From: Psychroflexus longus
GTDB lineage: Bacteria; Bacteroidota; Bacteroidia; Flavobacteriales; Flavobacteriaceae
Reading direction: 5' to 3'
Assembly: GCF_020164595.1 (NCBI RefSeq)
Contig: NZ_JAIQZE010000001.1
Location: forward strand, 1 to 64,000
DNA: 64,000 nucleotides
Shown here: positions 21,886 to 36,059 of the stretch, piece after piece
Layout: each line of letters opens with the position of its first letter
Numbering within the stretch: position 1 is the first letter of the stretch
The notes under the pieces: model-generated
Database searches by the model: none
What the model saw: the letters and a program-made list of their open reading frames with translations, nothing else
What the model was told of the DNA's origin: nothing
Program-made: the position numbers and the translations under genes

Positions 21886-23940
21886 TTAGTAATCTAAAAG
21901 CTCTTGTATTTTGGCTTTTACCTTTTCGGTACTTGGGATCATGGTTTCTTCCAAAATGGAATTTAGGGGAATGGCCGGCATATTTTCGGAGCCTATCGTA
22001 ATTACTGGCGCATCCAGGTATTGAAAGCACTTTTCCTGAATCTTCCCGCTCAATGCTCTGGCAAACGAATTATTGGATGGTTCCTCGGTCACAACCAAAC
22101 ATTTCTTGCATTTTTTGACTGACTTCATGATGGTTTCCTCATCCAAAGGATGGAGCGTCCTAAGGTCCACAACTTCAATTTGGTCTTGCAAACCGAGTTC
22201 CTGTGAGGCATTCATTGCCCAGTGCACTCCCATTCCATAAGTGATGATGCTTAGTGTTTCCTTGTCGTCCTGAGGCCAGATTTCCTGCAATACCCAGGCT
22301 TTGCCAAATGGAAGCACATAATCTTCTGCAGGTTCTATGCTAGTGGCCCCTTTGGTACCGGGGACTTTGCTCCAGTATAAGCCTTTGTGTTCAAAAATAA
22401 CCACGGGATTTGGATCGTGGTAAGCGGCTTTCATCAGACCTTTTAAATCTGCACCATTGCTGGGGTAAGCTATTTTGAGACCACGTATATTGGTGACTAC
22501 ACTTTCCACTGAAGAGGAATGGTAAGGACCACCGCTACCGTATGCACCAATAGGCACACGCAAAATCATGGATACTGGCCATTTTCCGTTGGACAAATAA
22601 CAACTGCGACTCACTTCTGTAAACAACTGATTGAGTCCAGGCCAGATGTAATCTGCAAACTGAACCTCAACAATTGGCTTAAGACCAACGGCAGACATTC
22701 CCACCGTAGAACCCACGATAAAGGCCTCCTGTATTGGCGTATTGAAAACCCGATGGTCTCCGAATTTTTGAGCCAAAGTGGCTGCCTCTCGGAACACACC
22801 TCCTAACCTACCGCCCACATCCTGACCGTAGAGTAAACATTCTTTGTAGTTGGTCATCAACTCTTCAATAGCGAACAAGGCACAATCGACCATGACAACT
22901 TTTTCTGCACCTTCTGGGGAGCGTTCGCCTCGTTCCTCTGTGATAGGAGTTGGAGCAAAATCATGCGTAAATAGATCCTCTGGTGTGGGATCTTTAGCTT
23001 GTAATGCTTCCTGATATTCTTTTTCTACAACTGCTTTGGCTGCTTTTTCAATAGCTTCCAATTCATCTTCAGTAAAGTCATTATCAAGAAGTTGTTTTTT
23101 TAATTTCGGATAGGGATCTCTAATTTTAGACTCCTCGAGATCATCCCTGTAAAATTCCATTCGTACACCCGATGTATGGTGATTGAGAAGCGGACACTTG
23201 GCATGCACCAAAAATGGTCTGCGCTCAGTTCTCACCGTCTCCACAACCTTTTTAAATTCTGAGTATGACTCAATAAAATCGGTTCCATCAATACTGATGG
23301 CTTCCAGGCCGTGAAAGCCTTTGGCATATTCATACGCATCCTGAGCTCTCGTTTCTTCAGCATTAGCAGATATATCCCATTCGTTGTCCTGTACTACATA
23401 AATAATCGGCAATTGCTTAAGAGCGGCCATCTGTAAGGCCTCTGCAATTTCACCTTCAGTCATGGAAGCGTCTCCAAGGGAGCAAACAGTTATTGGTAAT
23501 TCTGATTTATTAATTTCGAATTGTGAAGTATTTTCTTTGTACTTCATGCCCATCGCCGCACCGGTGGCGGGAATCGCCTGCATACCGGTGGCCGAGCTTT
23601 GATGTGGAATTTTTGGTTTGTCGTCATCCTTTAAGCTTGGGTGTGAATAGTAGGTTCGCCCCGCAGAAAATGGATCGTCTTTTTTAGCTAAAAGCTGTAG
23701 CATCAAATCTTTAGGCTGCATGCCAATCGCTAGCAAAATCGAATCATCACGGTAGTAAGGATACACATAATCTTGGGGTTTCAATTGCATACCCACCGCC
23801 GTTTGGATCACTTCGTGTCCTCGAGATGTGGCATGCACGTATTTCGAAACCACCTTGAAATTATCTTCGTAAAGTTCTGTCATCGCCTTAGCGGTGACTA
23901 GGTTGGTAAATGCTTTTTTGAAAATATCTTTAGAAATCAT
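21886..23940 (-). CDS. 2-oxoacid dehydrogenase E1, fused alpha and beta subunits (branched-chain type)
   Basis: Thiamine-diphosphate enzyme that decarboxylates a 2-oxo acid and passes the acyl group to E2 lipoyl. Residues about 1-330 are E1-alpha (TPP motif starting GDASMTEGEIAEALQ and ending VVQDNEW) and about 345-684 are E1-beta (GQDVGGRLGGVFREA, QEAFIVGSTVGM, FADYIWPGLNQ, GSGGPYHSSS). The branched-chain pattern suggests substrates from valine, leucine or isoleucine, but aromatic 2-oxo acids are possible given the paa context. ATG 23940 is used; a TTG lies two codons earlier. An AATT heptad array begins five bases upstream of the ATG. Confidence 0.92.
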   Translation of the reverse strand: MISKDIFKKAFTNLVTAKAMTELYEDNFKVVSKYVHATSRGHEVIQTAVGMQLKPQDYVYPYYRDDSILLAIGMQPKDLMLQLLAKKDDPFSAGRTYYSHPSLKDDDKPKIPHQSSATGMQAIPATGAAMGMKYKENTSQFEINKSELPITVCSLGDASMTEGEIAEALQMAALKQLPIIYVVQDNEWDISANAEETRAQDAYEYAKGFHGLEAISIDGTDFIESYSEFKKVVETVRTERRPFLVHAKCPLLNHHTSGVRMEFYRDDLEESKIRDPYPKLKKQLLDNDFTEDELEAIEKAAKAVVEKEYQEALQAKDPTPEDLFTHDFAPTPITEERGERSPEGAEKVVMVDCALFAIEELMTNYKECLLYGQDVGGRLGGVFREAATLAQKFGDHRVFNTPIQEAFIVGSTVGMSAVGLKPIVEVQFADYIWPGLNQLFTEVSRSCYLSNGKWPVSMILRVPIGAYGSGGPYHSSSVESVVTNIRGLKIAYPSNGADLKGLMKAAYHDPNPVVIFEHKGLYWSKVPGTKGATSIEPAEDYVLPFGKAWVLQEIWPQDDKETLSIITYGMGVHWAMNASQELGLQDQIEVVDLRTLHPLDEETIMKSVKKCKKCLVVTEEPSNNSFARALSGKIQEKCFQYLDAPVITIGSENMPAIPLNSILEETMIPSTEKVKAKIQELLDY

Positions 23941-23944
23941 GATC

Positions 23945-23986
23945 AATTTTAAATTTTAAATTATGAATTTTTAATTCATAATTTGG
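23945..23986. repeat. Heptad array, module 1 left (AATT + 3)
   Basis: AATT occurs at 23945, 23952, 23959, 23966, 23973 and 23980, exactly every 7 bases, with spacers TTA, TTA, ATG, TTT, CAT, TGG. The array fills the gap between the four-helix-bundle gene and the E1 start codon and overlaps the end of the bundle gene. Confidence 0.9.
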
Positions 23987-24323
23987 ATTTGATTGTTTTG
24001 ATAATTGAAGTTAGTAAGCGAATAATCTCTTCACAATCTTTGATGTGAGTATTTACCTCTATATTCACTAATTCACTTTTATCCAAAAGCTGCAGCCAGT
24101 AGACTGTTTCTCTTGCCTCTTTAGATGCAATCGATAACTTATGGACAAAATCAATTCGACTTTGAGCTGCTTCTGACTCAGCGATATTGGCTCCTATACT
24201 GGTCCCGCTTCTCAATATCTGTTTTGAAATTATAAACTCTTTTTGATCTTGCATCATTTTAAACAACAGTATAATCTTCAACGAAAATTCAAAGCTTTTA
24301 TCTTTTACTATGTTTGATTTCAT
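23976..24323 (-). CDS. Four-helix-bundle protein (S23/TIGR02436-like), module 1
   Basis: A 115-aa all-helical protein of the family named from proteins encoded in 23S rRNA intervening sequences and related to the DGR accessory protein Avd. The signature SKQILRSGTSIGANIAESEAAQS, then DFVHKLSIASKEARETVYWLQLL is complete. Family members are small, basic and proposed to bind nucleic acid; the function here is unknown. It separates the E2 and E1 genes of one enzyme complex, in the same orientation, and is bracketed by AATT heptad arrays on both sides. It is only distantly similar to the two other copies in this window, arguing against a recent duplication. Confidence 0.88.
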   Translation of the reverse strand: MKSNIVKDKSFEFSLKIILLFKMMQDQKEFIISKQILRSGTSIGANIAESEAAQSRIDFVHKLSIASKEARETVYWLQLLDKSELVNIEVNTHIKDCEEIIRLLTSIIKTIKSKL

Positions 24324-24331
24324 TACAGACC

Positions 24332-24377
24332 AATTAAGTTATTGTCATTTAAAATTTAGAATTCAAAATTCAAAATT
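24332..24377. repeat. Heptad array, module 1 right (AATT + 3)
   Basis: AATT at 24353, 24360, 24367 and 24374, CATT at 24346 and AATT at 24332, all in one 7-base phase. It ends directly at the E2 stop codon. AATT is its own complement, so both module 1 arrays show the same word. Confidence 0.88.
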
Positions 24378-25700
24378 TTATTTTTTTTCTTTCTCCAAAT
24401 AATCCGCTATTCTCCTTAGAAAACTTCCGGCTAAAAAGCCATCTACAATACGGTGATCGAAGGAGAGTGATAAATACATCATTTGTCGGATTTCAATTTT
24501 ATCACCGTCTTCATATTCAATAACCTCAGCTCTTTTTTTGATGATGCCCGTCGCTAGAATCGCCGCCTCTGGCTGATTGATAATCGGCGTTCCCATCAAG
24601 CTCCCAAAGGTGCCTACATTGGAAATGGTAAAGGTGCTGCCTTTGGTTTCTTCGCTGGTAAGCTTATTATCTCTCGCTTTTTGGGCTAGTAAATTCACGT
24701 TTTTCGCTAATGCTTTCAAATCTTTTTGATCTGAATTCCGAACTACAGGTACGATCAAATTTCCACTAGGTAGAGCCGTAGCCATGCCGATATGAATATC
24801 CTCTTTCACAATGATCTCGTTTCCGTCCAAAGAGGAATTGATCATGGGGTAATCCTGAATCGCCTTGGTCACTGCCTGAATGAAAAGTGGAGTAAAGGTG
24901 AGCTTCTCACCGGTCTTTTCCTGAAATGTTTTCTTATTGGCATTTCTCCAGTTGACCAGATTAGTCATGTCTGCCTCCACATAAGCGGTAACGTGTGGAG
25001 AGGTATGCTTGGAAAACACCATGTGGTCTGCAATCATCTGTCGCATGCGATCCATTTCCACACGTTTGCCTTTTCCTTTGTCAAATTGTAAATCGGGCAC
25101 TTGAAAACCAGATGCGTGCTGAGTCGGTTCGGGTTGAGCAAATTGAGCGGGTCTGCCCGCATCAATATAGTTAAATATGTCAGATTTTTGGAGTCGATCG
25201 TTTGCCCCCGACGCTGGAATTCTCGCCAGTTCTTCATAGCTGATGTGATGATCTTTTGCTATTTTTTCGACAAGTGGTGAATAAAACTGATCTCCTCTAT
25301 CACTTGGCTTCCACTCTACCTTAGAAACATATTTTGATGTTTCACTCGATTGTGATTTTGGTTTTTCGGGTCGGGGCTTAGTTGATGAAATTTTATTGGT
25401 CTCTTGTTTAATTTGCTTTTCAGTATTTGCTTCTGATATTGATTCTACATCATCCATAGCTTCAATTAGTGCAATTGTTTCACCAATTTTAACTATATCA
25501 TTGGCTTGATACTTCTTTTCGATAAGTCTCCCTGAAAAAGGTGCCGGCACTTCATTATCCACTTTATCTGTCCCTACTTCTATTAAGATATCACCTTTTT
25601 GAAAAGTATCTCCTTCGTTCACCATCCAGTTCAGAATAGTTCCCTCAGTAATACTTTCTCCCATTTTAGGAAGTTTAAACTCTTTAGCTTTTTCACTCAT
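24378..25700 (-). CDS. 2-oxoacid dehydrogenase E2 (dihydrolipoyl acyltransferase)
   Basis: E2 carries the swinging lipoyl arm and transfers the acyl group to CoA. One lipoyl domain (residues about 6-80; Lys in VGTDKVDNEV), a peripheral-subunit-binding segment (PLVEKIAKDHHISYEELARIPASGANDRLQKSDI) and a catalytic domain ending in SFDHRIVDG with His and Asp of the active site. Length 440 aa is normal for a branched-chain E2. It forms a complex with the E1 encoded downstream; no dihydrolipoamide dehydrogenase gene is in the window. Confidence 0.93.
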   Translation of the reverse strand: MSEKAKEFKLPKMGESITEGTILNWMVNEGDTFQKGDILIEVGTDKVDNEVPAPFSGRLIEKKYQANDIVKIGETIALIEAMDDVESISEANTEKQIKQETNKISSTKPRPEKPKSQSSETSKYVSKVEWKPSDRGDQFYSPLVEKIAKDHHISYEELARIPASGANDRLQKSDIFNYIDAGRPAQFAQPEPTQHASGFQVPDLQFDKGKGKRVEMDRMRQMIADHMVFSKHTSPHVTAYVEADMTNLVNWRNANKKTFQEKTGEKLTFTPLFIQAVTKAIQDYPMINSSLDGNEIIVKEDIHIGMATALPSGNLIVPVVRNSDQKDLKALAKNVNLLAQKARDNKLTSEETKGSTFTISNVGTFGSLMGTPIINQPEAAILATGIIKKRAEVIEYEDGDKIEIRQMMYLSLSFDHRIVDGFLAGSFLRRIADYLEKEKK

Positions 25701-25772
25701 AATTTCTTCAATCTAGCTTTTTCTCTTTTCTAATATCTTACCAAGACGCTAAGTTTTTCTTTGTTTTCTAGC

Positions 25773-25797
25773 CACTCATCACTACCCAGTAATCTCT
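25773..25797. repeat. Short, decayed heptad array (CACT)
   Basis: CACT at 25773 and 25780, CAGT at 25787 and CTCT at 25794 keep a 7-base step and end at the paaY stop codon. There is no four-helix-bundle gene beside it and no clear mate array towards E2, so this may be a relic or chance. Confidence 0.35.
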
Positions 25798-26398
25798 AAT
25801 TAATACCGCTCTTAAATTCATTCAACGTCTTATAGAAATCTTCCTGTACAGGCCGGTTTTCTGGGATTTCTCGAAGTGGCTGTACTTCTTCTAAGCTTTC
25901 ATGACAGTCAGCTGGCAGCTGCTGATACAATAGCGTACCTGCTGTTTTCCAGGCTATCATTTCATCAGAAACTTCCTTGATAATTTTACCCGGGTTTCCT
26001 ACTACTAAACTGCGGCTGGATATTTTGGTTTCCGCTTTCACAAACGCCAAAGCACCAATAATACATTCGTCGCCAATTTCGGCGTCATCCATGATCACGG
26101 AGTTCATACCGATAAGGCAATTTTCTCCAAGATTTGCTCCATGAATAATAGCTCCATGACCTACATGCGCCCCTTTCTTAAGTGTTATGCTTTTGCCCGG
26201 AAACATATGTACCGTACAGTTTTCCTGCACATTCACTCCATCTTCCAAAATAATCTCACCCCAATCTCCGCGAATAGCCGCTCCAGGTCCAATATAACAA
26301 TCCTTGCCAATAATGACGTTGCCTGTTACTGCAGCCAACGGATGCACAAAGCTGGATTCATGTACGACTGGTATATGGTTTTTGAATTTGTAGATCAT
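25796..26398 (-). CDS. paaY: PaaY-type gamma-carbonic anhydrase-like hexapeptide protein
   Basis: A left-handed beta-helix protein built of hexapeptide repeats (VTGNVIIGKDCYIGPGAAIRGDWGEIILEDGVNVQENC) with histidines placed as in metal-binding gamma-carbonic anhydrases (VHMFPG, GHGAIIHGA). PaaY is a thioesterase that removes dead-end CoA esters such as 2-hydroxycyclohepta-1,4,6-triene-1-formyl-CoA formed by the phenylacetate pathway. Length 200 aa and the paa context support the name. Confidence 0.88.
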   Translation of the reverse strand: MIYKFKNHIPVVHESSFVHPLAAVTGNVIIGKDCYIGPGAAIRGDWGEIILEDGVNVQENCTVHMFPGKSITLKKGAHVGHGAIIHGANLGENCLIGMNSVIMDDAEIGDECIIGALAFVKAETKISSRSLVVGNPGKIIKEVSDEMIAWKTAGTLLYQQLPADCHESLEEVQPLREIPENRPVQEDFYKTLNEFKSGIN

Positions 26399-26448
26399 GA
26401 AATTTCTGCTTTTGCGGAAATCTCTTCCCGCACATTCAAATAATAATA

Positions 26449-26763
26449 TTATTTCAATCTTGATCTTGATAAATCAAGGTTCCAGTTATCTGATAAATTA
26501 GACCAACTTGGATTCATTTCTTCTATTAAATTTATCTTCCATGCTCTGTTCCATTTTTTAAACCTTTTTTCTCTTGTAGAAGCTTCGACTGAACTATCAA
26601 ATTCTTCAAAGTATACCAGTTTATTACAATTGTATCTTGCCGTAAAAGATCTTGGATATGTTTTTAGTTTATGCCCTTTTATTCGCTCATCAAGATCATT
26701 TGTAACCCCAATATAAAGCACAGTATTATTTTTATTGGTTATGATATAAACGTAATGACTCAT
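26449..26763 (-). CDS. Small GIY-YIG nuclease-domain protein
   Basis: A 104-aa stand-alone GIY-YIG domain: YVYIITNKNNTVLYIGVTNDLDERI carries the YVY...YIG motif and the catalytic Arg; Tyr and Glu follow in LVYFEEFDSSVEASTREKRFKKWNR. Such proteins are widespread and of unknown role, perhaps DNA repair or degradation. It lies between paaY and the enoyl-CoA hydratase gene in the same orientation and is not part of phenylacetate catabolism. Two adjacent ATGs are possible; the second (26763) is used. Confidence 0.85.
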   Translation of the reverse strand: MSHYVYIITNKNNTVLYIGVTNDLDERIKGHKLKTYPRSFTARYNCNKLVYFEEFDSSVEASTREKRFKKWNRAWKINLIEEMNPSWSNLSDNWNLDLSRSRLK

Positions 26764-26839
26764 CATTCTTCAGTTTTTGTCAAAATTTAAAGTAATGATT
26801 TCATAAAATAGACATCCGCATGCGCGAATGTAAATCTCT

Positions 26840-27592
26840 CTATTTAAACCGCTTCAGCTTCTCCTTCGTAAAAGAACTTAACACTAACTTTCCACTGATT
26901 TTCGCACGTTCTTTTAACAACTCATCCCAGTCTTCAGTTCCTCGCCAAAACATTTGTTTCATTTGCTTGACAGCTTCAGGATTATATTCGCATAAATTTT
27001 TTGCAAATTCTGCTATAGCAATATCCAAATCTTCTGTAGAATCGTAAACATTTGCATATAAACCTTTGCCTTTTGCCCATTCTGCTGTATAGAATGTGTT
27101 GGCATCTATTGCAATCTGGGACATTCCACTAACACCCAATTTACGTTCAACGGCAGGACCAACAACAAAAGGACCTATTCCAAGATTCAATTCACTCAAC
27201 TTGATAGCAGCGTATTTGGTAGCCATGCAATAATCCATAGAAGAGGCAAGGCCTACGCCACCGCCAACAGTTTTACCTTGAACACGCCCAATAATAAATT
27301 TTGGACATTTACGCATGGCGTTGATTACATTGGCAAATCCACTAAAGAACTTTTCTCCAGTTTGCTCATCGTTAATAGAAATCAATTCTTTAAAACTGGC
27401 TCCGGCACAAAACGTTCGATCACCTCCAGATTTTAAGACCACCACCAAAACGTCATCATCATGACCTACTTTGGTGATGGTATCAGCTAATTGAGCTAGA
27501 ATATCACTCGGTAATGAATTATGTGCAGGATGAAAAAATTCTATCGTCGCAATTTTGTCTTTTATGTCTTTTTTTACGTAAGGTTTCGTCAT
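26840..27592 (-). CDS. Enoyl-CoA hydratase/isomerase of the paa cluster
   Basis: A crotonase-fold protein of 250 aa: oxyanion-hole segments FCAGASFKEL and QGKTVGGGVGLASSMDY, then IKLSELNLGIGPFVVG. It probably hydrates an unsaturated CoA intermediate of phenylacetate breakdown (PaaF-like, 2,3-dehydroadipyl-CoA), but the equivalent of the usual catalytic Glu pair is not fully clear, so the symbol is left empty. It starts a second transcript whose promoter has nearly the same operator as paaE. Confidence 0.85.
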   Translation of the reverse strand: MTKPYVKKDIKDKIATIEFFHPAHNSLPSDILAQLADTITKVGHDDDVLVVVLKSGGDRTFCAGASFKELISINDEQTGEKFFSGFANVINAMRKCPKFIIGRVQGKTVGGGVGLASSMDYCMATKYAAIKLSELNLGIGPFVVGPAVERKLGVSGMSQIAIDANTFYTAEWAKGKGLYANVYDSTEDLDIAIAEFAKNLCEYNPEAVKQMKQMFWRGTEDWDELLKERAKISGKLVLSSFTKEKLKRFK

Positions 27593-27629
27593 AATTTATA
27601 GTATTTCTCAATCGTTTTCGGGTCATGTT

Positions 27630-27660
27630 CAAAACTAATGATTGTTAGTATCATTCGCAA
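27630..27660 (-). promoter_or_regulatory. Promoter/operator 2 of the paa regulon
   Basis: The 20 bases at 27630-27649 match operator 1 (39984-40003) at 18 of 20 positions. The inverted repeat is ACTAAT-gatt-GTTAGT. On the minus strand TAGTTTTG (27637-27630) fits TAnnTTTG and TTG (27660-27658) lies 20 bases upstream, so the operator covers the -7 box, as for a repressor. Confidence 0.7.
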
Positions 27661-27719
27661 TTGGATTATTTTAAATTTAGTAGTTTTACACCTAATCTAA
27701 CCTTTTTAAAACTTTATAA

Positions 27720-28535
27720 ATGAAAACCCTCCCAATACTATTGTTTGTGTTTTTGCTTGTGTCTGCTTCTGCTTATTCTCAAGATCCAGATGAAACCTAT
27801 ATAATTGCTAAAGGCTGTAAAAATGCAGAGGGAAACATGGAGCTGAAAGATTGTTTTTCGAAAAAGGTTTCGAATTTGTTTACACGCAGCGTAGGGAGAA
27901 AATTTAGAAATGAACTCAAACCAGGAATCAACAAATTCAACCTAGCTTTTGAGGTACAAAAAGATAAATCTGTTCATTTAGTTCATTTAAACTCAAATAA
28001 TCCTGTTATTAAAAAGGAATTTGAAAACACATTGAATAAACTTAAAATAATAGAACCTGGTATTCAAGATGGTAAACCCATCAATGCTACCATTAATTTA
28101 CCTGTTGTTATTAAAACAAATACTACTGGTGTTGAGGCTAATCATAAGATGAGTAAAGTAACCGATAAAAATGATTATAAAGGCAACGAAAGGATTTATC
28201 CCAGCATTGATATTTATTGCAAATATGAAGATGAAGAAAAAGCATTTAATAGTTACAGTAACTATATGCTAAACTTTCTTTTTAATAAAATTGAACCTGA
28301 TCAAATAAACACCTTTTTAAACCCTGGGATGAATTTCTTTGAAATTAAAATTCTTTACAATAAAGATGACACAATAACTAAAATAGTATCAAATAGTGGC
28401 AACTCAAAGCTTGATACTATTTTTAAAAAGAACGTCGTTGAGGTTTTTCATGAATCTAAATTTAAAAGTCCCCGTAAAGACAATGTGTCCTACTCTGGTG
28501 AAATGGTGTTTTACATTTTCTATATGAAAAGCTAG
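27720..28535 (+). CDS. Secreted protein of unknown function with two similar TonB_C-like halves
   Basis: A signal peptide (MKTLPILLFVFLLVSASAYSQ) is followed by two segments of similar layout: about residues 50-135 (ELKPGINKFNLAFEVQKDKS, DGKPINATINLPVVI) and 185-271 (FLNPGMNFFEIKILYNKDDT, SGEMVFYIFY). Each has PGxNxF, a strand with KD, a TNS/SNS turn, a helix and a final beta pair, reminiscent of the C-terminal domain of TonB. No proline-rich or membrane part of TonB is present, so it is not an energy transducer. It is the only plus-strand gene within the paa region and splits it in two. Confidence 0.6.
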   Translation: MKTLPILLFVFLLVSASAYSQDPDETYIIAKGCKNAEGNMELKDCFSKKVSNLFTRSVGRKFRNELKPGINKFNLAFEVQKDKSVHLVHLNSNNPVIKKEFENTLNKLKIIEPGIQDGKPINATINLPVVIKTNTTGVEANHKMSKVTDKNDYKGNERIYPSIDIYCKYEDEEKAFNSYSNYMLNFLFNKIEPDQINTFLNPGMNFFEIKILYNKDDTITKIVSNSGNSKLDTIFKKNVVEVFHESKFKSPRKDNVSYSGEMVFYIFYMKS

Positions 28536-28566
28536 ATTTAAATTATAAGACTTATGAATAGCAATT

Positions 28567-28608
28567 AAAAAAATGCTGTCTAAATTCGATTTAGACAGCA
28601 TTTTTTTT
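28567..28608. terminator. Strong bidirectional terminator
   Basis: AAATGCTGTCTAAA (28571-28584), loop TTCGA, TTTAGACAGCATTT (28590-28603), extended by A and T runs on both sides. It serves the plus-strand secreted-protein gene and the convergent paaZ. Confidence 0.95.
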
Positions 28609-28614
28609 GAGATT

Positions 28615-31125
28615 TTAAATCAACCCAAACTGTTCAAAATGATGATTAAAATGCTTTCTGTTTAAAAGCTTCCACTCAAAACTTGTCAATTCTCCAAAAA
28701 CTGCATTCTTTGTAACTGCATCCGGATGTTCTCTAAAATAAACTTCATAAGCCTCATAAGACTCCAATAAAGCTTTTTTAGCCTCCTCTAGAGTGCTATG
28801 ATTTAAGGCTTCAAGTTCATTTTCCTTCATCAAAGGCATCTTATAACCGTGTGGCATTTTTTCGTAGTTGTATAAGGTTTCCTGAACTTTCTCTAAATGC
28901 TCTTCAGGTGTGGCAATTTCAAAATTGGATATGTCTCCTGTAGCTATCCTCAAACTCATTTCCAAATGCTCCAGCATATGTTGTGGCGTCATCATCCCCC
29001 ATTTCGCCTGACTTTCTTCTGAAAGTGATTTTAACTTACTATCAATAAAATCCTTATCCACTTCATAAAAGGTTTCTTGTTTTTTCTGAACCATGGTCAA
29101 AATAGTCGCAATGGCCACCAGCTTGTCCTCTTCTTCTACCGCCTCCACATCAAAGACTTCCACATACCATTTCACAATGCCGCTTGGTAATTCCTTTCCT
29201 TTTTGATCGCGATCCACTTTCTCTTTGCAAGTTAATCGGACATTTATAGTATCATTGTGATATAGCGGTCTTAGAAATCGAATTTCTTCTAAACCGTAAT
29301 TAGCCGCGACAGGACCTTTATTTGGATAAACAAACAATCCAGCTGCTGCTGAAATTATGAAATAACCATGAGCAGTTCGCTGCTCAAAAATACTGCCTTC
29401 CAAAGAAGTGATATCCGTATGCGCATAAAAGTGATCCCAGGTTAAGTTTCCGAAGTTGATAATATCTGTGTCGGTTAAGGTTCGGTTATGCGTTTTTAAG
29501 GACATTCCGGGCTGTATGTCTTCCCAATGGTAAGCAAATGGATGCTTTTCGGCGTCTTTGTAGTTTGCTTTCGGCTGATAAATGCCAGTGATTTCAGTTA
29601 AAGTGGTTGGACTTCCCTGAATCGCGCAACGCTGCATAAAGTGCTTGATCCCGCGTTTTCCACCCATTTCTTCTCCACCACCGGCTCGGCCAGGACCACC
29701 GTGAACCAAATTAGGTAAAGGGGCACCATGACCTGTACTTTGCTTGGCAGATTCCCGATTAATGGACATGATTCTTCCGTGATGCGACGCCGATTTTATG
29801 GTATATTCAGTTGCAATCCGATCATCATTAGTGAAAATTGAACTTACCAAAGAACCTCTTCCTTTTTTAGAAAGCTGAATCGCTTCTTCTAAATTTTTAT
29901 AAGGCATCAGTGTGCTTACAGGCCCAAAGGCTTCGGTAATGTGAGCAGCTTCATTTATGAAAGGCTTATCCTCTCTCATCAAAATGGGTTTGATAAAAGC
30001 TCCTTTTTCAAATTCAGCATTAATGGTTTCTGCCGAGTCAAAATCGCCATAAACGATTTCTGCAGTTTTTGAAATCTCTCCGACTGCTTTTTTTACGGCT
30101 TCTACTTGTTGTTTATCAATAAGACTTCCCATTCGGACTTCCTTCAGTCTTGGATCTCCCAATGTCACTTTATCCAAAGCTTTTCCTAAGGCAATTTGGA
30201 CATCTTCAATGAGAGATTCTGGAACAATCGCTCGACGAATCGCCGTACATTTCTGACCGCATTTCACTGTCATTTCATTTCTAACCTCTCTTATAAATAA
30301 ATCGAATTCAGGGGTGCCTGGAACTGCATCTTCTCCCAAAATACAAGCATTCAGAGAATCTGCTTCCATGGTAAATGGAACAGATTCTTCAAGCAATCTT
30401 GGATGATTTTTAAGCATTCGTCCAGTTGCGGCAGAACCTGTAAACGTGACAATGTCCTGTGATTCGACACTATCCAAAATGTTTTTCTCCGTGCCTGAAA
30501 TCAGTTGCAAAGTACCTTCTGGCAAAATGCCTGAAGCGATGATTTCTTTGACGACGGCTTCAGTCAAATACGCCGACTGTGGGGCTGGCAGAACGACAGC
30601 TGGCACTCCAGCCATCCAGTTGACCGCACATTTTTCCAGCATTCCCCACACAGGAAAATTGAAGGCATTGATGTGAACCGCAACACCTTCTTTGGGTACC
30701 AAAATATGATGCGCCATAAACCGGCCACCACGAGACAAATCAATAGGGTCACCTTCTACATCAAAGGGCTGATTGGGAAACAACTTCCTTAAAGACGCAT
30801 TGGCAAACAAATTTCCAAAACCGCCATCAATATCAAACCAAGAATCCATCTTTGTAGCCCCAGTACGATAGCTCAATTCATAAAATGCTCTTTTTTTCTT
30901 CTGTAGATAGAATGCTAAAGATTTCAGCATATTTCCACGTTCCTGAAACGTCATTTGTCGCAAGGTTTCACCCTTTTCACGACCGTAAGCCAAAACTTCA
31001 GGAATATCGAAACCTGCAACAGTTATATTTGTAAAATGTTCTCCAGTAATGGAATCAAAAATAGGTTTTCCCTTCCCCCTTCCTTCCTTCCATTGGCCTT
31101 GTATGTAACTTTGTGTGGTTTGCAT
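28615..31125 (-). CDS. paaZ: PaaZ bifunctional oxepin-CoA hydrolase / aldehyde dehydrogenase with extra C-terminal DinB-like domain
   Basis: PaaZ opens the seven-membered ring of oxepin-CoA and oxidises the resulting semialdehyde to 3-oxo-5,6-dehydrosuberyl-CoA. Residues 1-510 are the NADP aldehyde dehydrogenase (Cys in VKCGQKCTAIRR, Glu in FTMEADSLN); about 525-680 are the MaoC-type R-hydratase (FGNLTWDHFYAHTD with Asp and His). Canonical PaaZ ends near 681. Here 155 further residues follow: WGMMTPQHMLEHL, a helical stretch and FGELTSFEWKLLNRKHFNHH, which resemble the histidine pattern of DinB/DUF1569 proteins. No stop or frameshift separates the parts, so it is a true fusion. Confidence 0.93.
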   Translation of the reverse strand: MQTTQSYIQGQWKEGRGKGKPIFDSITGEHFTNITVAGFDIPEVLAYGREKGETLRQMTFQERGNMLKSLAFYLQKKKRAFYELSYRTGATKMDSWFDIDGGFGNLFANASLRKLFPNQPFDVEGDPIDLSRGGRFMAHHILVPKEGVAVHINAFNFPVWGMLEKCAVNWMAGVPAVVLPAPQSAYLTEAVVKEIIASGILPEGTLQLISGTEKNILDSVESQDIVTFTGSAATGRMLKNHPRLLEESVPFTMEADSLNACILGEDAVPGTPEFDLFIREVRNEMTVKCGQKCTAIRRAIVPESLIEDVQIALGKALDKVTLGDPRLKEVRMGSLIDKQQVEAVKKAVGEISKTAEIVYGDFDSAETINAEFEKGAFIKPILMREDKPFINEAAHITEAFGPVSTLMPYKNLEEAIQLSKKGRGSLVSSIFTNDDRIATEYTIKSASHHGRIMSINRESAKQSTGHGAPLPNLVHGGPGRAGGGEEMGGKRGIKHFMQRCAIQGSPTTLTEITGIYQPKANYKDAEKHPFAYHWEDIQPGMSLKTHNRTLTDTDIINFGNLTWDHFYAHTDITSLEGSIFEQRTAHGYFIISAAAGLFVYPNKGPVAANYGLEEIRFLRPLYHNDTINVRLTCKEKVDRDQKGKELPSGIVKWYVEVFDVEAVEEEDKLVAIATILTMVQKKQETFYEVDKDFIDSKLKSLSEESQAKWGMMTPQHMLEHLEMSLRIATGDISNFEIATPEEHLEKVQETLYNYEKMPHGYKMPLMKENELEALNHSTLEEAKKALLESYEAYEVYFREHPDAVTKNAVFGELTSFEWKLLNRKHFNHHFEQFGLI

Positions 31126-31173
31126 GATATTTTAATTAATGATCTTTTATTAAATTTAAATGAGCTTCAATTC

Positions 31174-32379
31174 TTAACTCGCATTCTCAATCACAGCTGC
31201 GTAACCTTGTCCAACTCCTACACACATGGTAACAAGTGCATATTTTTTATTAGTCATTTTAAGCTCCAAAGCAGCCGAATAAGCAAGCCTTGCTCCAGTA
31301 ACCCCGAGTGGATGACCAATCGCAATCGCGCCCCCGTTAGGGTTAATTCGTGGATCGTCGTCTTTCAATCCCCAGGCGCGGATACAAGCTAAGGATTGAG
31401 CTGCAAAGGCTTCATTCAATTCAATCACATCCATATCTTCCATTTTCAAACCTGCTTTTGCCAAAGCCTTATTGGACGCTTCCACAGGCCCAATACCCAT
31501 AATTCTTGGTTCAACCCCAACCACAGCAGAACTCAAAATTTTAGCCATCGGATTCAAATTATATTTTTCAACTGCTTTTTGTGAAGCCACAATCGTAGCT
31601 GCAGCACCATCATTGAGGCCTGACGAATTTCCGGCTGTCACGCTTCCGTCTTTTCTAAATGCCGGACGTAGCTTAGCCAAAACTTCCAGCTTGGTTTGTG
31701 GTTTCACAAACTCATCCTGAACAAACACCAAATCATTCTGCTTTCGTCGTGGAATATTTACAGCGACAATTTCTCTGGCCAATCGGCCGTTTTCCTGAGC
31801 TTTCGAAGCTTTCATCTGAGAATGATAAGCAAAGGCGTCCTGGTCTTCACGCGAAATTTTGTGGATATCGACCAGATTTTCAGCCGTCACACCCATACCA
31901 TCCGTTCCATATTGTTCGTGCATTTTTGGATTCACAAACCGCCACCCAAAGCTAGTATCGTACATTTTGGAATCATTTCCGTAAGCCGATGAAGCTTTAG
32001 AAATAGCGTAAGGACCACGTGTCATGTGCTCAACTCCACCAGCGATAAATAAATCGCCATCCCCTGCTTTTATAGCTCGGTTGGCGTGAATAATCGCTGA
32101 CAGTCCACTACTGCAAAGTCGATTTACCGTTTCTCCTGGCACAGAGTGAGGCAATCCCGCCAAAAGTGAGCACATTCTAGCCACGTTTCGGTTGTCTTCC
32201 CCCGCCTGATTGGCACATCCCAATATCACATCATCAAAAGCTTCTTTGGGAATAGATGAATTTCTACTTACGATTTCTTTGATGACCAAGGCCCCCAAAT
32301 CGTCAGCTCTCACTGGTGAAAGCTTCCCTTTATAATTTCCAATTGGCGTTCGAATTCCGTCGATTATAAATGCATCCAT
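31174..32379 (-). CDS. paaJ: 3-oxoadipyl-CoA / 3-oxo-5,6-dehydrosuberyl-CoA thiolase
   Basis: The thiolase that performs the final CoA-dependent cleavages, releasing acetyl-CoA and succinyl-CoA. Active-site Cys lies in VNRLCSSGLSAI, His in GGAIAIGHPLGVTGAR and the second Cys in CVGVGQGYA. The start AFIIDGIRTPIGNYKGKLS and SRTPIG-like motif, plus GGVEHMTRGPY, are typical of PcaF/PaaJ. Length 401 aa is normal. It lies between paaZ and paaI in the paa operon. Confidence 0.93.
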   Translation of the reverse strand: MDAFIIDGIRTPIGNYKGKLSPVRADDLGALVIKEIVSRNSSIPKEAFDDVILGCANQAGEDNRNVARMCSLLAGLPHSVPGETVNRLCSSGLSAIIHANRAIKAGDGDLFIAGGVEHMTRGPYAISKASSAYGNDSKMYDTSFGWRFVNPKMHEQYGTDGMGVTAENLVDIHKISREDQDAFAYHSQMKASKAQENGRLAREIVAVNIPRRKQNDLVFVQDEFVKPQTKLEVLAKLRPAFRKDGSVTAGNSSGLNDGAAATIVASQKAVEKYNLNPMAKILSSAVVGVEPRIMGIGPVEASNKALAKAGLKMEDMDVIELNEAFAAQSLACIRAWGLKDDDPRINPNGGAIAIGHPLGVTGARLAYSAALELKMTNKKYALVTMCVGVGQGYAAVIENAS

Positions 32380-32400
32380 GTCTTGTATTTTGTTATTTTG

Positions 32401-32541
32401 GGCGTTAACAGGCTTTTCGTTTCAAGTCCTCGTCCGGTGATGGCTTTCGCAAACTTTCCCATGAGCTCCTTTCAGTCGCTTTGGCAAAGCTGTTTCAGCA
32501 CAACACCAATCCTGCAGGCTTTCCACTACAATCCTTAACGC
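32401..32541 (+). repeat. Structured intergenic element B
   Basis: The ends GGCGTTAACAGGCTTTTCG and TTTCCACTACAATCCTTAACG are partly inverted (GGCGTTAA...TTAACGC) and enclose about 100 bases with a small GCTTTG/CAAAGC hairpin. It matches element D over both ends and belongs to the same family as A and C. It fills the paaI-paaJ gap. Confidence 0.65.
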
Positions 32542-32565
32542 AAATTTGTTTTAAATTTAATGTTT

Positions 32566-32982
32566 TTAGTCATCATTTAAGTCCCACTCTTTTGAGGTTC
32601 TGTACACAACTCCTTTGAAAAGCGCTACTAACTGATCTTCTTTTTTAACCTCTACGACATGAAAACCAAGTTTATTTTTTGTCACTTCCACACTGGATTC
32701 GGCGGTGATATAATCGCCTTCTTCCAAGGCTTCAATATGATTGATAGAGGTTTCGATAGACACTGCATATTTTCCATGAGTATTCGCTGCAAAACCAAAA
32801 GCGGTATCTGCCAAAGCATAGGTGATACCTCCATGAGCTTTCTGCATGGAATTGAGCATCTCCGGTCTTACTTTCAGTCCCACTTTACACTTACCTAAAC
32901 TCACCTCCAAAATCTCAATTCCCAGCCAACTGCTGAAGGGATCTTGTGAGAGCATTTTTTGAGGTATTAGGTTGTAGGACAT
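32566..32982 (-). CDS. paaI: PaaI hotdog-fold acyl-CoA thioesterase
   Basis: PaaI hydrolyses stalled hydroxyphenylacetyl-CoA-type esters and so frees CoA. The hotdog core has MQKAHGGITYALADTAFGFAANTHG (Gly and Asp of the active site on the long helix) and AVSIETSINHIEAL. The ATG at 32982 gives MSYNLIPQKMLSQDPF; its first seven codons lie in the TAGG heptad array of module 2. A second ATG at 32952 (MLSQDPF) would avoid the array and still leave the complete fold, so the start may have been displaced by the insertion. Confidence 0.9.
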   Translation of the reverse strand: MSYNLIPQKMLSQDPFSSWLGIEILEVSLGKCKVGLKVRPEMLNSMQKAHGGITYALADTAFGFAANTHGKYAVSIETSINHIEALEEGDYITAESSVEVTKNKLGFHVVEVKKEDQLVALFKGVVYRTSKEWDLNDD

Positions 32983-32999
32983 AGGGTTTAGGTATAAAG
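32961..32999. repeat. Heptad array, module 2 left (TAGG + 3)
   Basis: TAGG at 32968, 32975, 32982 and 32989, each 7 bases apart, with GAGG at 32961 and AAAG at 32996 in phase. Spacers are TTG, ACA, GTT, TAT. The array runs into the first codons of paaI. Confidence 0.92.
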
Positions 33000-33007
33000 T
33001 TTAGTTG

Positions 33008-33385
33008 TTATTTACTTATTCTTTTAAAAATTGAAGCACGTAAGCCGCTTATCATTTTTACCATCTCAACCAAGTGTTCTCGATTTGCTTCATTTTCTTC
33101 CTGACTAATATAATTTCTCCGGACAGCTTTAGTACTACAAGCGACACATTCATGTAAGCTGTGATAAGCATTGCCAAGGTAATTATGAAATTGTTTATCT
33201 GTTCCGGCAGAACCTTCTGCTATGTTTAAAGCAATAGAGTCACCGGCTCTCCTGAACTGAGAAGTCAATTCGAAACGTTCTTCTTTCGGAAAATCTTTTG
33301 TCTGTTGATGAACAACTTCTCCAAAATCCATTGCCTTTTGATAAACTTTAAAATCCTCAAATTTAAAATGAAACTTAGATTTCAT
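33008..33385 (-). CDS. Four-helix-bundle protein (S23/TIGR02436-like), module 2
   Basis: A 125-aa helical protein: FEDFKVYQKAMDFGEVVHQ, FELTSQFRRAGDSIALNIAEG and HNYLGNAYHSLHECVACS are the classic 23S-rRNA-intervening-sequence protein pattern (the commoner subtype, with FxDLxVWQKA-like start). It is bracketed by TAGG arrays on the left and CCTA arrays on the right and sits between paaH and paaI in operon orientation. The catabolic pathway does not need it. Function unknown; nucleic-acid binding is inferred from the family. Confidence 0.93.
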   Translation of the reverse strand: MKSKFHFKFEDFKVYQKAMDFGEVVHQQTKDFPKEERFELTSQFRRAGDSIALNIAEGSAGTDKQFHNYLGNAYHSLHECVACSTKAVRRNYISQEENEANREHLVEMVKMISGLRASIFKRISK

Positions 33386-33401
33386 AACTCGATTATTTAT
33401 T

Positions 33402-33454
33402 CCTACTACCTAACACCTACCTCCTATTACCTAGAACCTAAAACCTCCCTCCTT
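33402..33454. repeat. Heptad array, module 2 right (CCTA + 3)
   Basis: CCTA at 33402, 33409, 33416, 33423, 33430 and 33437, without a single phase slip, then CCTC at 33444 and CCTT at 33451. CCTA is the complement of TAGG on the left side. The array overlaps the stop and last codons of paaH (EGGRF). Confidence 0.95.
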
Positions 33455-34610
33455 CTTTCGCCATTTTCCTCAACAACGGGCTACATCTATATCGATCCTC
33501 TCTGTAGGTGTCGTAAAGATGATCCATCTGTTCAACACACCAGTCAATGCCTTTTTTATTAGCCCATTTCAAAAGTCCTTTTGGATAGTTGACTCCCTTA
33601 GTCATAGCCAAATCAATATCTTTAGCAGTAGCGATATTTAAGAATAAAGCATCTGCGGCTTCATTGATAAGCATAGCTAACACCCGATCAAATATCTGTT
33701 GACCCATTTCACGGTCTTTGACAGGCGCTATTTTTTGTGCATTTTCTCTATAATCATAAAACCCTTTGCCTGACTTTCGACCTAAATAGCCTGCCTCCGC
33801 AAAGCGCTTTTGGGTAAATGATGGCTTGTACCGTGGGTCGTAGTAAAAAGCTTCAAAAACAGTTTCGGTAACGGTATAATTGACGTCGTTTCCGATAAAG
33901 TCCATCAACTGAAAAGGCCCCATTTTAAATCCGCCAAATTCTTTCATCGCCCAATCAATTGTTGCAAAACCTGCTTCGCCTTCAGGGACACCTGCAAAAC
34001 GCTCTTCGTAAATTCTAAGTGCTTCTCCGTAAAATGGTCGAGCTACCCGATTCACAATAAATCCAGGAGTGTCTTTAGCCTTAACCGGCACTTTTTTCCA
34101 GTCTTGCATAATTGAAAATACCTTATCAAAAACATCAGAAGAAGTTTGCACAGCAGGTACAATTTCTACCAAAGGCATCAATGGTGCTGGATTGAAAAAG
34201 TGAACACCAATGCATCGCTCTGGTTTTTGTAAAGCTGAAGCAATCGAAGCAATGGACAAAGACGACGTATTGCTGGCAATAATGGCTTCATCACTTTGGT
34301 AACTTTCCAACTCTTTAAACACCTTTTGCTTGATCTCCAGATTTTCAATAATAGCTTCTATGGTCAAATCTGCATCAGCAAGATCCTTCAAATTTTCTAC
34401 ATAACTGATGTTTCCCTGTATTCTGTTTTTTTTCTGGTCATCAATACGCCCTTTTTCAATTAACCGACTCAGAATTTTCTCCAAAGCCTGTTTAGCTTTA
34501 TCAAGTGCTTCTGCTTTGGTATCGTAAAGCTTCACCTGGCAACCTGCCGTTGCTGCTACCTGCGCTATGCCGCTTCCCATGGTTCCGCTTCCTATTATGG
34601 CTATGTTCAT
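33438..34610 (-). CDS. paaH: 3-hydroxyadipyl-CoA dehydrogenase
   Basis: Oxidises 3-hydroxyadipyl-CoA to 3-oxoadipyl-CoA with NAD. Rossmann motif IIGSGTMGSGIAQVAA (residues 4-19), catalytic His in GVHFFNPAPLMPLVEIV, then DTPGFIVNRVARP. Two 3-hydroxyacyl-CoA dehydrogenase C-terminal domains are present (about 185-285 and 300-385), as in PaaH and unlike the 282-aa butyryl enzymes. The last codons coincide with the CCTA heptad array of module 2, so the C-terminal EGGRF may be altered from the ancestral end. Confidence 0.93.
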   Translation of the reverse strand: MNIAIIGSGTMGSGIAQVAATAGCQVKLYDTKAEALDKAKQALEKILSRLIEKGRIDDQKKNRIQGNISYVENLKDLADADLTIEAIIENLEIKQKVFKELESYQSDEAIIASNTSSLSIASIASALQKPERCIGVHFFNPAPLMPLVEIVPAVQTSSDVFDKVFSIMQDWKKVPVKAKDTPGFIVNRVARPFYGEALRIYEERFAGVPEGEAGFATIDWAMKEFGGFKMGPFQLMDFIGNDVNYTVTETVFEAFYYDPRYKPSFTQKRFAEAGYLGRKSGKGFYDYRENAQKIAPVKDREMGQQIFDRVLAMLINEAADALFLNIATAKDIDLAMTKGVNYPKGLLKWANKKGIDWCVEQMDHLYDTYREDRYRCSPLLRKMAKEGGRF

Positions 34611-34622
34611 ATTGTAATTAAC

Positions 34623-34667
34623 GATTTTATTAGATTGTTGATTAACGATTGTTGATTTATTTCGATT
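34623..34667. repeat. Heptad array, module 3 left (GATT + 3)
   Basis: GATT at 34633, 34640, 34647 and 34654 in strict 7-base steps; further GATT at 34623 and 34664 are each ten bases away. It fills the gap between the bundle gene's end and the paaH start codon. Confidence 0.88.
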
Positions 34668-35028
34668 TAATATTGAGTTTTGCAGTAGAAGTTTTAATAC
34701 TGATCACAAATATGGATATCAGTTCATTATTTTCTTTCAATAATTTATCTAATGAGTCAGTATCCGATGTTAAGTTTGCTCCCTTTTGAATTTTCAGATT
34801 AATCAAACATTCCCTTAATTCCTTTAAACAAATTTTCATTTTATGAAGAAAGTCTCTTATAGACTCAGCGCTTCTTGCTTCGCCGTAATTCAAAGCTGAA
34901 GAACTAGCAGATCTTATTAACTGTTTGGTCAAATATTCTCCTTCAAAATTATTCTTGACAGTTTTACAAAATAAAATAGAATCGATTGAAAATTGGATCA
35001 GTCTATCTTCTAACTCAACTGGTTTCAT
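34657..35028 (-). CDS. Four-helix-bundle protein (S23/TIGR02436-like), module 3
   Basis: A 123-aa helical protein with LTKQLIRSASSSALNYGEARSAES and DFLHKMKICLKELRECLINLK, the subtype shared with module 1 but clearly divergent from it. It sits between paaG and paaH, in operon orientation, between a GATT array (left) and an AATC array (right). The C-terminal codons enter the left array. Function unknown. The three copies differ so much that each was probably acquired independently. Confidence 0.88.
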   Translation of the reverse strand: MKPVELEDRLIQFSIDSILFCKTVKNNFEGEYLTKQLIRSASSSALNYGEARSAESIRDFLHKMKICLKELRECLINLKIQKGANLTSDTDSLDKLLKENNELISIFVISIKTSTAKLNIKSK

Positions 35029-35071
35029 ACTTAAAAGATTTATGTTTAACTTATTTAAGCATTGATTAAAA

Positions 35072-35138
35072 AATCAGCAATCTCCTACCATCAATCTCCA
35101 ATCGTTAATCTGAAATCTTTAATCTCAAATACTCAATT
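35072..35138. repeat. Heptad array, module 3 right (AATC + 3)
   Basis: AATC at 35072, 35079, 35093, 35100, 35107, 35114 and 35121, TACC in the 35086 slot, AATA at 35128 and AATT at 35135, all in one 7-base phase. AATC is the complement of GATT on the left. The array ends at the paaG stop codon. Confidence 0.95.
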
Positions 35139-35920
35139 TATTTTCCTCTAAACTTCGCCTCTCTCTTTTCCATAAATGCGGACACACCTTCTTCATAATC
35201 ATTTGTATTGGCGGCGGCGATTTGATATTCAGACTCTAAAGCGAGTTGGTCTTCAAGTGAATTATTGAAGGACTTGTTCAGTGCTTTTTTGGTATAGGCC
35301 AAAGCTTTGGTGGGCATTTTGGCTAATTTTTCTGCTAACTTCTTTACTTCTTCTTGGTAAGTTTCGGCTGAATAATATTTGTAAATCATGCCCATACGTT
35401 CCGCTTCAACCGCATCTACTTTGTCACCCAGCATGGCTAAAGCGGATGCTCTTTGGAAACCAACTAGTCTTGGCAGAAAAAAAGTGCCTGCAGAATCGGG
35501 GATCAATCCAATTTTTGAAAAGGCCTGAATAAAACTAGCTTGTTCGCTGGCAACAACGATATCACAAGCTAAAGCGATGTTGGCTCCTGCTCCTGCAGCT
35601 ACACCGTTAACAGAAGCAATGACAGGTTTTTCGATATTTCTGATTCTCGTAATGATAGGATTGTAATGGTCATCTAATATTTTTTTGAATCCAGGATGCT
35701 GATCCGGATCTGTAATTTCCTGTATGTCCTGACCTGCACAAAAGGCTTTGCCTTCACCAGTTAAAACAATAGCTCTCACCTCATCATTACGGATACAATC
35801 GTCTAGTGTTTTTTGCAAAGAAAAAGCCATTTCCCGATTGAAACTATTGAATTTGTTGGGTCTATTGAATTTTATGTAAGCAACTTGATTTTGAATAGTG
35901 AGTAATATACTGGAATCCAT
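35138..35920 (-). CDS. paaG: 1,2-epoxyphenylacetyl-CoA isomerase (oxepin-CoA forming)
   Basis: A crotonase-family protein that converts ring-1,2-epoxyphenylacetyl-CoA to oxepin-CoA. Oxyanion-hole motifs AFCAGQDIQEI and VNGVAAGAGANIALACDIV, the catalytic Asp in KIGLIPDSAGTFFLPR and the C-terminal trimerisation helices are present. Length 260 aa matches E. coli PaaG (262). It lies in the paa operon after paaD, with element C in the gap. Confidence 0.92.
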   Translation of the reverse strand: MDSSILLTIQNQVAYIKFNRPNKFNSFNREMAFSLQKTLDDCIRNDEVRAIVLTGEGKAFCAGQDIQEITDPDQHPGFKKILDDHYNPIITRIRNIEKPVIASVNGVAAGAGANIALACDIVVASEQASFIQAFSKIGLIPDSAGTFFLPRLVGFQRASALAMLGDKVDAVEAERMGMIYKYYSAETYQEEVKKLAEKLAKMPTKALAYTKKALNKSFNNSLEDQLALESEYQIAAANTNDYEEGVSAFMEKREAKFRGK

Positions 35921-36059
35921 AGTTTTGAATTTTTAGTGATTTTGAATGCGAAAAGTTACGAAATTAGGATTTAAATTAATCTTTAAGTAAGTTAGACTCT
36001 CAATCGATAAATCAAATTGATCTCTAATCCTAGTCTTGAAAAAATAACATTTGAAGTAA

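Follow-up and report, generated by a model that had tools for sequence, protein, structure and literature searches.

Arrays of period seven with inverted words around S23-family genes in Psychroflexus longus and other bacteria

A 64,000-nucleotide stretch of the Psychroflexus longus genome (NCBI RefSeq assembly GCF_020164595.1, contig NZ_JAIQZE010000001.1, positions 1 to 64,000; hereafter, the window) contains three genes of the S23/23S_rRNA_IVP four-helix-bundle family, each lying between two arrays in which a short fixed word recurs about every seven nucleotides. The question raised by this locus is whether such arrays belong to S23 genes in general and, if they do, what would read them. The first part has a plain answer: the observation of arrays around S23 genes is real and general. 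The second can be answered conditionally, and the candidate reader is the S23 protein itself.

The three modules in the window

All three proteins passed the cut-offs of PF05635 and TIGR02436 in a profile search. The modules (each an S23 gene with its two arrays, or arms) are listed here by coordinates, strand (a dot for the arrays) and description.

23938..23986, strand., module 1 left array (3' arm of the S23 transcript); six AATT units, all at step 7; lag-7 score 33/49; overlaps the end of the S23 gene
23976..24323, minus strand, module 1 S23 gene, 115 amino acids; PF05635 E 7.2e-26, TIGR02436 E 9.8e-31
24332..24384, strand., module 1 right array (5' arm); AATT, a lone unit and then four at step 7; lag-7 score 34/49
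32961..33004, strand., module 2 left array (3' arm); four exact TAGG at step 7 plus near matches
33008..33385, minus strand, module 2 S23 gene, 125 amino acids; PF05635 E 1.7e-29
33402..33445, strand., module 2 right array (5' arm); six CCTA at step 7
34620..34670, strand., module 3 left array (3' arm); six GATT units, of which four keep step 7 and two are off by 3
34657..35028, minus strand, module 3 S23 gene, 123 amino acids, a divergent member; TIGR02436 E 1.8e-19
35072..35137, strand., module 3 right array (5' arm); AATC, seven exact copies in 35072-35121 (step-7 scan)

The word positions given in the initial annotation were rechecked in the window and were correct. AATT of module 1 starts at 23945, 23952, 23959, 23966, 23973 and 23980 on the left (all at step 7), and at 24332 and then 24353, 24360, 24367 and 24374 on the right; TAGG of module 2 starts at 32968, 32975, 32982 and 32989, and CCTA at six positions from 33402 to 33437 with step 7; GATT of module 3 starts at 34623, 34633, 34640, 34647, 34654 and 34664 (steps 10, 7, 7, 7 and 10), and AATC at 35072, 35079, 35093, 35100, 35107, 35114 and 35121. 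The period had been called strict, which describes the other runs but not the left arm of module 3, which is off-step, or two right arms, which contain gaps.

The five strongest period-7 places in the window were five of the six S23 flanks. At a lag-7 score of at least 29/49, five places were found, all of them S23 flanks (the left flank of module 3 scored below 29), and each other lag from 4 to 15 gave 0-3 such places (lag 14 being a multiple of 7). A 4-mer kept in phase at 5 or more of 8 steps was found at 4 places with step 7, at 0 with steps 5, 6 and 8-12, and at 0 in 12 windows, each of 64 kb, simulated with a first-order Markov model; the maximum lag-7 score was 34/49 in the window and 26-29 across the 12 simulations. 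No Rfam match at the gathering threshold was obtained for positions 23500-36000.

Module 2 fills the space between two genes. Its right array extends to the stop codon of the upstream paaH-like gene (named by eye), which ends at 33438, and its left array takes in the start codon at 32982 together with the opening codons of the downstream gene. Since the TAGG array spans this start codon, the array supplies the first codons of the downstream gene. The latter is paaI-like (by eye), and its orthologs differ in their N-terminal residues at 32960-32982.

The genome of the window has nine S23 matches, and one locus (L006) contains stops. In the same genome, L008 and L009 (G000:C4:42871-43485) look like the halves of one octad-flanked S23 gene, split by a small GIY-YIG-like endonuclease open reading frame (ORF; by eye) and adjoining an intact close copy, L001.

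Period, word and polarity across S23 genes

S23 was present in 30 of the 40 genomes searched (including that of the window), with many members of the genus carrying it at several sites. A scan of genome contigs gave 588 confirmed stretches, the best 80 of which were kept as named loci (Bacteroidota, Geobacter, proteobacterial, Clostridia, Planctomycetes bins, Candidate Phyla and others). Relatives, further stretches and five loci from cyanobacterial plasmids completed the set examined: 247 S23 hits, 237 of them unique, were reduced to 207 near-full-length genes, mostly from Bacteroidota. Flanks were called with a threshold at the 99th percentile of mononucleotide shuffles, at which approximately 2 flanks are expected. 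Lag 7 was above the threshold in 117 upstream and 111 downstream flanks, that is, in either flank of 140 genes and in both flanks of 88, and the expectation that S23-family flanks elsewhere carry period 7 was thus borne out. The corresponding upstream and downstream numbers were 33 and 32 for lag 8, 9 and 17 for lag 9, 1 and 2 for lag 6, 3 and 7 for lag 10, and 2 and 3 for lag 11, and lags 4 and 5 gave 3 upstream and 6-7 downstream flanks. Lag 12 was over the threshold in 9 upstream and 17 downstream flanks, more than lags 6, 10 and 11. The period assigned was 7 in 135 genes, 8 in 37, 9 in 13 and another (6 or 10) in 4. The period looks partly determined by the protein, because in 136 of 185 cases it is the same as in the closest protein relative located at another site (shuffled mean, 106.6; maximum of 1000 shuffles, 132).

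Arrays reach 39 units (L049). The median number of units per arm was 5 and 5 (75 genes), and this was not used as evidence for a pentamer because the way of counting is biased towards arrays with about five or more units. A separate observation concerns the Pseudanabaena plasmid locus L232 (NZ_CP112875.1 44274-48621), at which an S23 gene with long, near-perfect AAAAGCT / AAAAGCC arrays lies between cas6 and cas4 in a locus with a type I-D Cas5. S23 was present in 32 plasmid records (at least 21 cyanobacterial by genus name and 4 from Riemerella), and a tblastn search for phage carriers using one query protein gave no match.

The words of the two arms are inverted relative to each other. Among the 102 of the 135 period-7 genes that have both arrays, the similarity between the upstream word and the reverse-complemented downstream word was 0.604, compared with 0.441 (standard deviation 0.007) for mismatched modules, and the inverted fit was the better one in 78; in the named multi-phylum set it was better in 41 of 46. 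The reverse complementarity of left and right words, noticed at three modules, thus extends to the family.

The arms also have a polarity on the coding strand. The upstream arm has more G than C in 97 genes, compared with 19 with the opposite bias, and the downstream arm is C-rich (92 genes vs 22); after thinning to below 50% identity, the upstream counts were 34 with G>C and 3 with C>G, of 38, and the downstream counts 27 with C>G and 10 with G>C, of 37. Mismatches are spread unevenly over the columns of the unit: 56 of 201 arrays exceeded 95% of the null (approximately 10 expected), and the best four contiguous columns had a mismatch of 0.105 (null, 0.142), compared with 0.362 (null, 0.312) in the remaining three. 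The idea that period 7 serves to place stop codons in all frames was considered and not adopted, the enrichment being only modest (0.767 stops per heptad in upstream arms vs 0.633 in column-permuted ones, with all three frames covered in 68 of 121).

The association is also seen at the level of whole genomes. S23 was present in 185 of 247 sampled Bacteroidota genomes, and five TAGs at step 7 were found in 105 of the 247 (at step 10, in 4). Such TAG arrays occurred in 101 of the 185 genomes with S23 and in 4 of the 62 without (Fisher p 1e-12, uncorrected for relatedness), and by rising S23 number in 4/62, 10/31, 15/32, 30/52, 20/35 and 26/35 genomes; within the largest family the contrast was 9/37 vs 1/17 (p 0.14). 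GAT at step 7, the reversed-pattern control, is itself another step-7 word; it was found in 120 of the 185 S23-bearing genomes and in 9 of the 62 others. At least one of the two words was present in 142 of the 185 and 11 of the 62, likewise uncorrected for relatedness; arrays of this kind are thus carried by a few genomes in which no S23 gene was detected. The 11 include G049, G133, G143 and G207.

Operon setting and exchange of modules

Orientation was counted for the 183 of the 207 genes with both neighbours called, of which 165 lay in sense between co-directional neighbours, 6 were antisense and 12 were mixed; for ordinary genes of the named loci, both neighbours were co-directional in 350 of 521. 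Within this sample, L003, L016 and L017, which have octad arrays of the CTGGTCA type, form the only Bacteroidota class antisense to both neighbours. The arrays fill the junction between the flanking genes, their starts falling 2 nt before the upstream stop codon ends (median; n=108; quartiles -6, +16) and their ends 5 nt short of the following start codon (median; n=104; quartiles -1, +22).

The paaG-paaH-paaI operon (gene names by eye) has both occupied and empty S23 sites within the genus. Empty paaG-paaH junctions measure 2-12 bases (L051, L052 and L054), and in occupied junctions arrays run from stop to start; at the same site, an array but no S23 ORF is present in L048, degraded copies in L043 and neither in L053. 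Further junctions, fadB-S23-fadA and fadA-S23-acyl-CoA dehydrogenase, recur across Bacteroidota (L101, L112, L133, L148, L119, L114 and others), their gene names being guesses based on the lengths and start residues of the ORFs. Beta-oxidation operons look as if they have housed S23 modules for a long time.

Ten species have an S23 ORF at the paaG-paaH site, and these fall into three protein classes with three words (GATT, GAATANN and the TTTCA/TGAAA type, the last by eye) that are discordant with the PaaH tree. L046 and L047 have PaaH proteins that are 93% identical, S23 proteins that are 49% identical and different words; L039 and L045 (PaaH 87%, S23 86% identical) share the same word; and in L047, units of the GAATA type and a broken S23 copy persist around the new module. 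The paaH-paaI site is occupied in L040 and L056 by one class, which has a GAGTT-type word and period 8, and in the rest by the period-7 TAGG class. Modules, that is, protein class and word together, are replaced as whole units against the host gene tree. The initial annotation had read the three modules as independent acquisitions; replacement of modules at the same position finds support at two sites, and present-day mobility finds none. Word and protein class do travel together, since three classes with three words cut across the PaaH tree at a single site.

Within a class the word is conserved. GAATANN is visible in four species whose PaaH fourfold degenerate sites are 0.23-0.41 identical (0.26 expected at saturation), and the upstream arms of this class score 16-24 of 28. 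For the 33 same-site pairs of S23 proteins at least 60% identical, upstream and downstream word similarity covary (rho 0.47, p 0.006). The word looks fast-changing but linked to its module.

For the mobility count, only pairs with all four neighbours called were used. Among 49 pairs at least 80% identical, 43 shared both neighbours, 4 shared one and 2 had other neighbour homology; none was at a clearly different site. Among 45 pairs of 70-80% identity, 4 were at clearly different sites. Fresh mobility was rejected on the absence of new sites among the 49 close pairs, and the proposal of a mobile gene family is, as regards present-day movement, not supported by these counts. Lag-7 arrays numbered 55 in the 91 kb near S23 and 38 in the 707 kb away from it. 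No second gene family recurred among 50 ORFs near 44 solo arrays, where recurring matches were host genes in two locus pairs only (L101/L112 and L131/L139).

Reader of the arrays and relation to known systems

Predicted RNA folds pair the arms around the gene in all three window modules (z -2.7, -2.1 and -4.4). The initial annotation had found the variable triplets to lack complementarity, which the predicted folding of the arms qualifies but does not overturn, the pairing of the variable columns being weak.

We consider it an even proposition that the modules are operon-resident, RNA-level relatives of the intervening sequences (IVSs) of 23S rRNA, in which the word of the paired arms would be bound by a pentameric S23 ring. 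A module that lies in sense between two genes, from the stop codon of the first to the start codon of the second, would be transcribed with the operon, and its arms would form a ladder of short helices that encloses the S23 cistron as a loop; in each rung, a word of 3-5 bases would be paired and a spacer of 2-4 bases mostly unpaired, giving a period of 7, 8 or 9. Two solved S23 relatives, 2GSC and 2RLD, have five chains, and a ring of five four-helix bundles could bind the repeated word with one subunit per repeat or with a few per arm. TRAP-type rings wrap RNA that carries evenly spaced triplets, and offer a possible mode in which one subunit takes one repeat with a spacer between; TRAP and S23 have no known sequence relation, and TRAP sites are not known to be inverted. 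Binding would control the translation of S23 itself or the processing of the intercistronic RNA, and selection for it would keep the word in both arms and let the spacer drift, so that the word would change mostly through exchange of the whole module, protein and arms together. Co-transcription, pairing in vivo, binding by the ring and an effect of binding are what we infer; the features described above suggest that the S23 protein is a putative reader of its own ladder. A pentameric ring has been described elsewhere in the family, in that the Xanthomonas S23 protein is a homopentameric toroid according to the part of PMC4990558 available.

Several observations weigh against this proposal. Pairing of the variable columns in the arms, although register-specific, is weak (42 of 65 modules beat the shuffle mean, p 0.0008; 10 of 65 reached p up to 0.05 in the column shuffle), and an identity test of spacer pairing was null (0.599 vs 0.582; 27 of 52). 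Reversing the order of units caused no significant loss (39 better and 33 worse, of 73), and there was no wobble signature (sense duplex -26.7 vs antisense -28.5 kcal/mol; sense better in 30 of 78). Shuffling the order of units had a strong effect (58 of 72), equally strong on the antisense strand, and was discounted because degenerate end units can inflate it. The direct fit is the better one in 24 of the 102 period-7 genes; inversion is better in just 15 of 26 period-8 genes, and among period-9 copies the direct fit tends to prevail (inverted better in 2 of 8). Some direct cases have a whole hairpin in each flank (L031 and L032). Eighteen of the 207 genes have no assigned period, the downstream arms of the GAATANN class are weak (13-15 of 21), the 38 lag-7 arrays away from S23 exist without the gene, and antisense copies occur in one octad class (L003, L016 and L017) and in three cyanobacterial plasmid copies. 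Between different sites, word and protein similarity were only weakly related (Mantel rho 0.08, a value reached in 6 of 500 permutations). Classes and words are exchanged jointly, and the correlation of word with protein is weak at this longer range; the word as a recognition code of its protein is a conjecture. Rejected as candidates were a strict inverted RNA stem as the sole constraint (spacer pairing weak, no significant loss on reversal, no wobble advantage) and a long-range code between word and protein (correlation only weak).

Other readings were weighed against the same data. The arrays could be terminal double-stranded DNA sites of a DNA-level element, with S23 as an accessory DNA-binding protein that serves in replication, in maintenance or in rare transposition carried out by a host enzyme. 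The inversion of the words across the gene with little pairing of the spacers, the lack of a wobble preference, the existence of antisense and solo copies and the swapping of modules as units would all suit such an element; however, the sense bias (165 vs 6), the lack of any clearly different site among the 49 pairs with 80% identity or more, the word that differs per module and thus leaves no shared end, and the match of the three proteins to just IVP/four-helix families (and below-cut-off relatives) make it unlikely. An insertion sequence or transposon in the ordinary sense is likewise not what was found: IVP is the sole Pfam match in the three S23 proteins, the words are particular to each module, and the close pairs show no clearly different site, target-site duplications not having been tested for.

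A purely host function, with the heptads serving as sites for general RNA-binding proteins or in translation coupling and S23 as a hitchhiking regulator in no selfish element, would explain why arrays touch stop and start codons; ATG in upstream arms is at approximately 0.35-fold of column-permuted arrays (but CAT is depleted too, at 0.42), and translational regulators were proposed by MacGregor for TAACTGA heptamers in the available portion of PMC4679880. Against it stand the variation of words between modules of one genome, the concentration of lag-7 arrays near S23 (55 in 91 kb vs 38 in 707 kb) and the presence of the two tested words in 11 of 62 genomes without S23 vs 142 of 185 with it, and we regard it as improbable. 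Least attractive is neutral slippage, that is, ordinary tandem repeats growing in spacers beside unimportant genes: the nearly perfect arrays of L232 and the 39 units of L049 are what it would produce, but it cannot make inverted words in both flanks and leaves the polarity, the uneven column constraint and the near-saturation conservation of the word unexplained, and we give it very little credence.

The closest known system lies within rRNA. The initial annotation knew of no description of the arrangement, and a full-text literature search, with subscription papers mostly outside it, returned none that we recognised for array-bracketed S23 genes outside rRNA; within rRNA, however, the Coxiella 23S-rRNA IVS has tandem heptamers before its S23 ORF, a 28-bp terminal stem and cleavage by RNase III in vitro, and the role of IVSs is described as little known (PMC4990558, in part). 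IVP ORFs are also reported from insertions in the 16S and 23S rRNA of Candidate Phyla Radiation bacteria (PMC11270868, in part). The likeness lies in an S23-family ORF within complementary, stem-forming ends, with heptamers beside the ORF and a parasitic look (PMC4990558, in part); the arms of the modules correspondingly pair in 3 of 3 predicted folds, and inverted words prevail in 78 of 102. The difference is that these IVSs, as far as the sources go, are situated in rRNA genes and undergo RNase III cleavage, whereas the modules lie between protein genes of operons; blastn with E. coli 23S rRNA (E 1e-5) gave no match in any of 233 loci.

Several repeat families resemble the arrays. Cyanobacterial short tandemly repeated repetitive sequences (STRRs) and the Nostoc trnL P6b repeats (classes TDNGATT and NNTGAGT) have fixed and variable heptad positions and hairpin-forming inverted arms; they are intergenic or in RNA loops and, in the portions available of PMC4476775 and PMC2670836, are described without an S23 gene, the link to S23 being proposed here. 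The five cyanobacterial plasmid S23 loci all fall under period 7 and have STRR-like tandem heptads (published STRR words were not compared); at step 7 with at least 4 units, GATT was found in 3 and TGAG in 4 of the 135 period-7 S23 genes. The TAACTGA repeats of Beggiatoaceae, Cyanobacteria and Bacteroidetes are also intergenic heptamer arrays in overlapping phyla, and S1, Csp and Csr proteins were proposed as candidate binders; they differ in having one fixed word, mostly in direct repeats upstream of start codons, and the terms 'S23' and 'four helix' are absent from the text available (PMC4679880). Heptads of the AACNGA type occur in some S23 flanks (L203-L205 and L223), but an exact tandem TAACTGA pair was found in none of the flanks of the 135 period-7 genes, and TAACNGA three times in one. 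The tandem octa- and heptanucleotide sites of Geobacter metallireducens, paired on opposite strands at variable distance, are read as sites of a global regulator and are likened here by description (PMC2700814, in part). Avd of diversity-generating retroelements is a related four-helix-bundle protein (structural homology 4DWL/2GSC) that works with a reverse transcriptase (PMC10053308, in part); the Avd model gave 26.1 bits for module 2, against a cut-off of 80, and no hit for the other two, a reverse transcriptase not having been searched for.

By this analogy, STRRs, TAACTGA repeats, Nostoc P6b stems and rRNA IVSs may belong to the same phenomenon. A broader proposal, which we put forward as possible at somewhat less than even chances, is that pentameric S23 rings are the missing readers of bacterial heptamer, octamer and nonamer arrays, recognising in the arms of their own operon-embedded transcript a class-specific word of 3-5 nt at a fixed step of 7, 8 or 9 nt, and that these arrays form a hitherto undescribed class of selfish or regulatory RNA elements with rRNA IVSs, STRRs, P6b, TAACTGA and the Geobacter sites as members or remnants. 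S23/IVP genes are widespread in Bacteroidota, and the arrays offer a ligand hypothesis for their proteins and a naturally occurring set of word-protein pairs, and they point to a candidate for the shared cause behind several orphan repeat families; should the word prove to be a code, the modules would represent a new nucleic-acid recognition system with exchangeable specificity.

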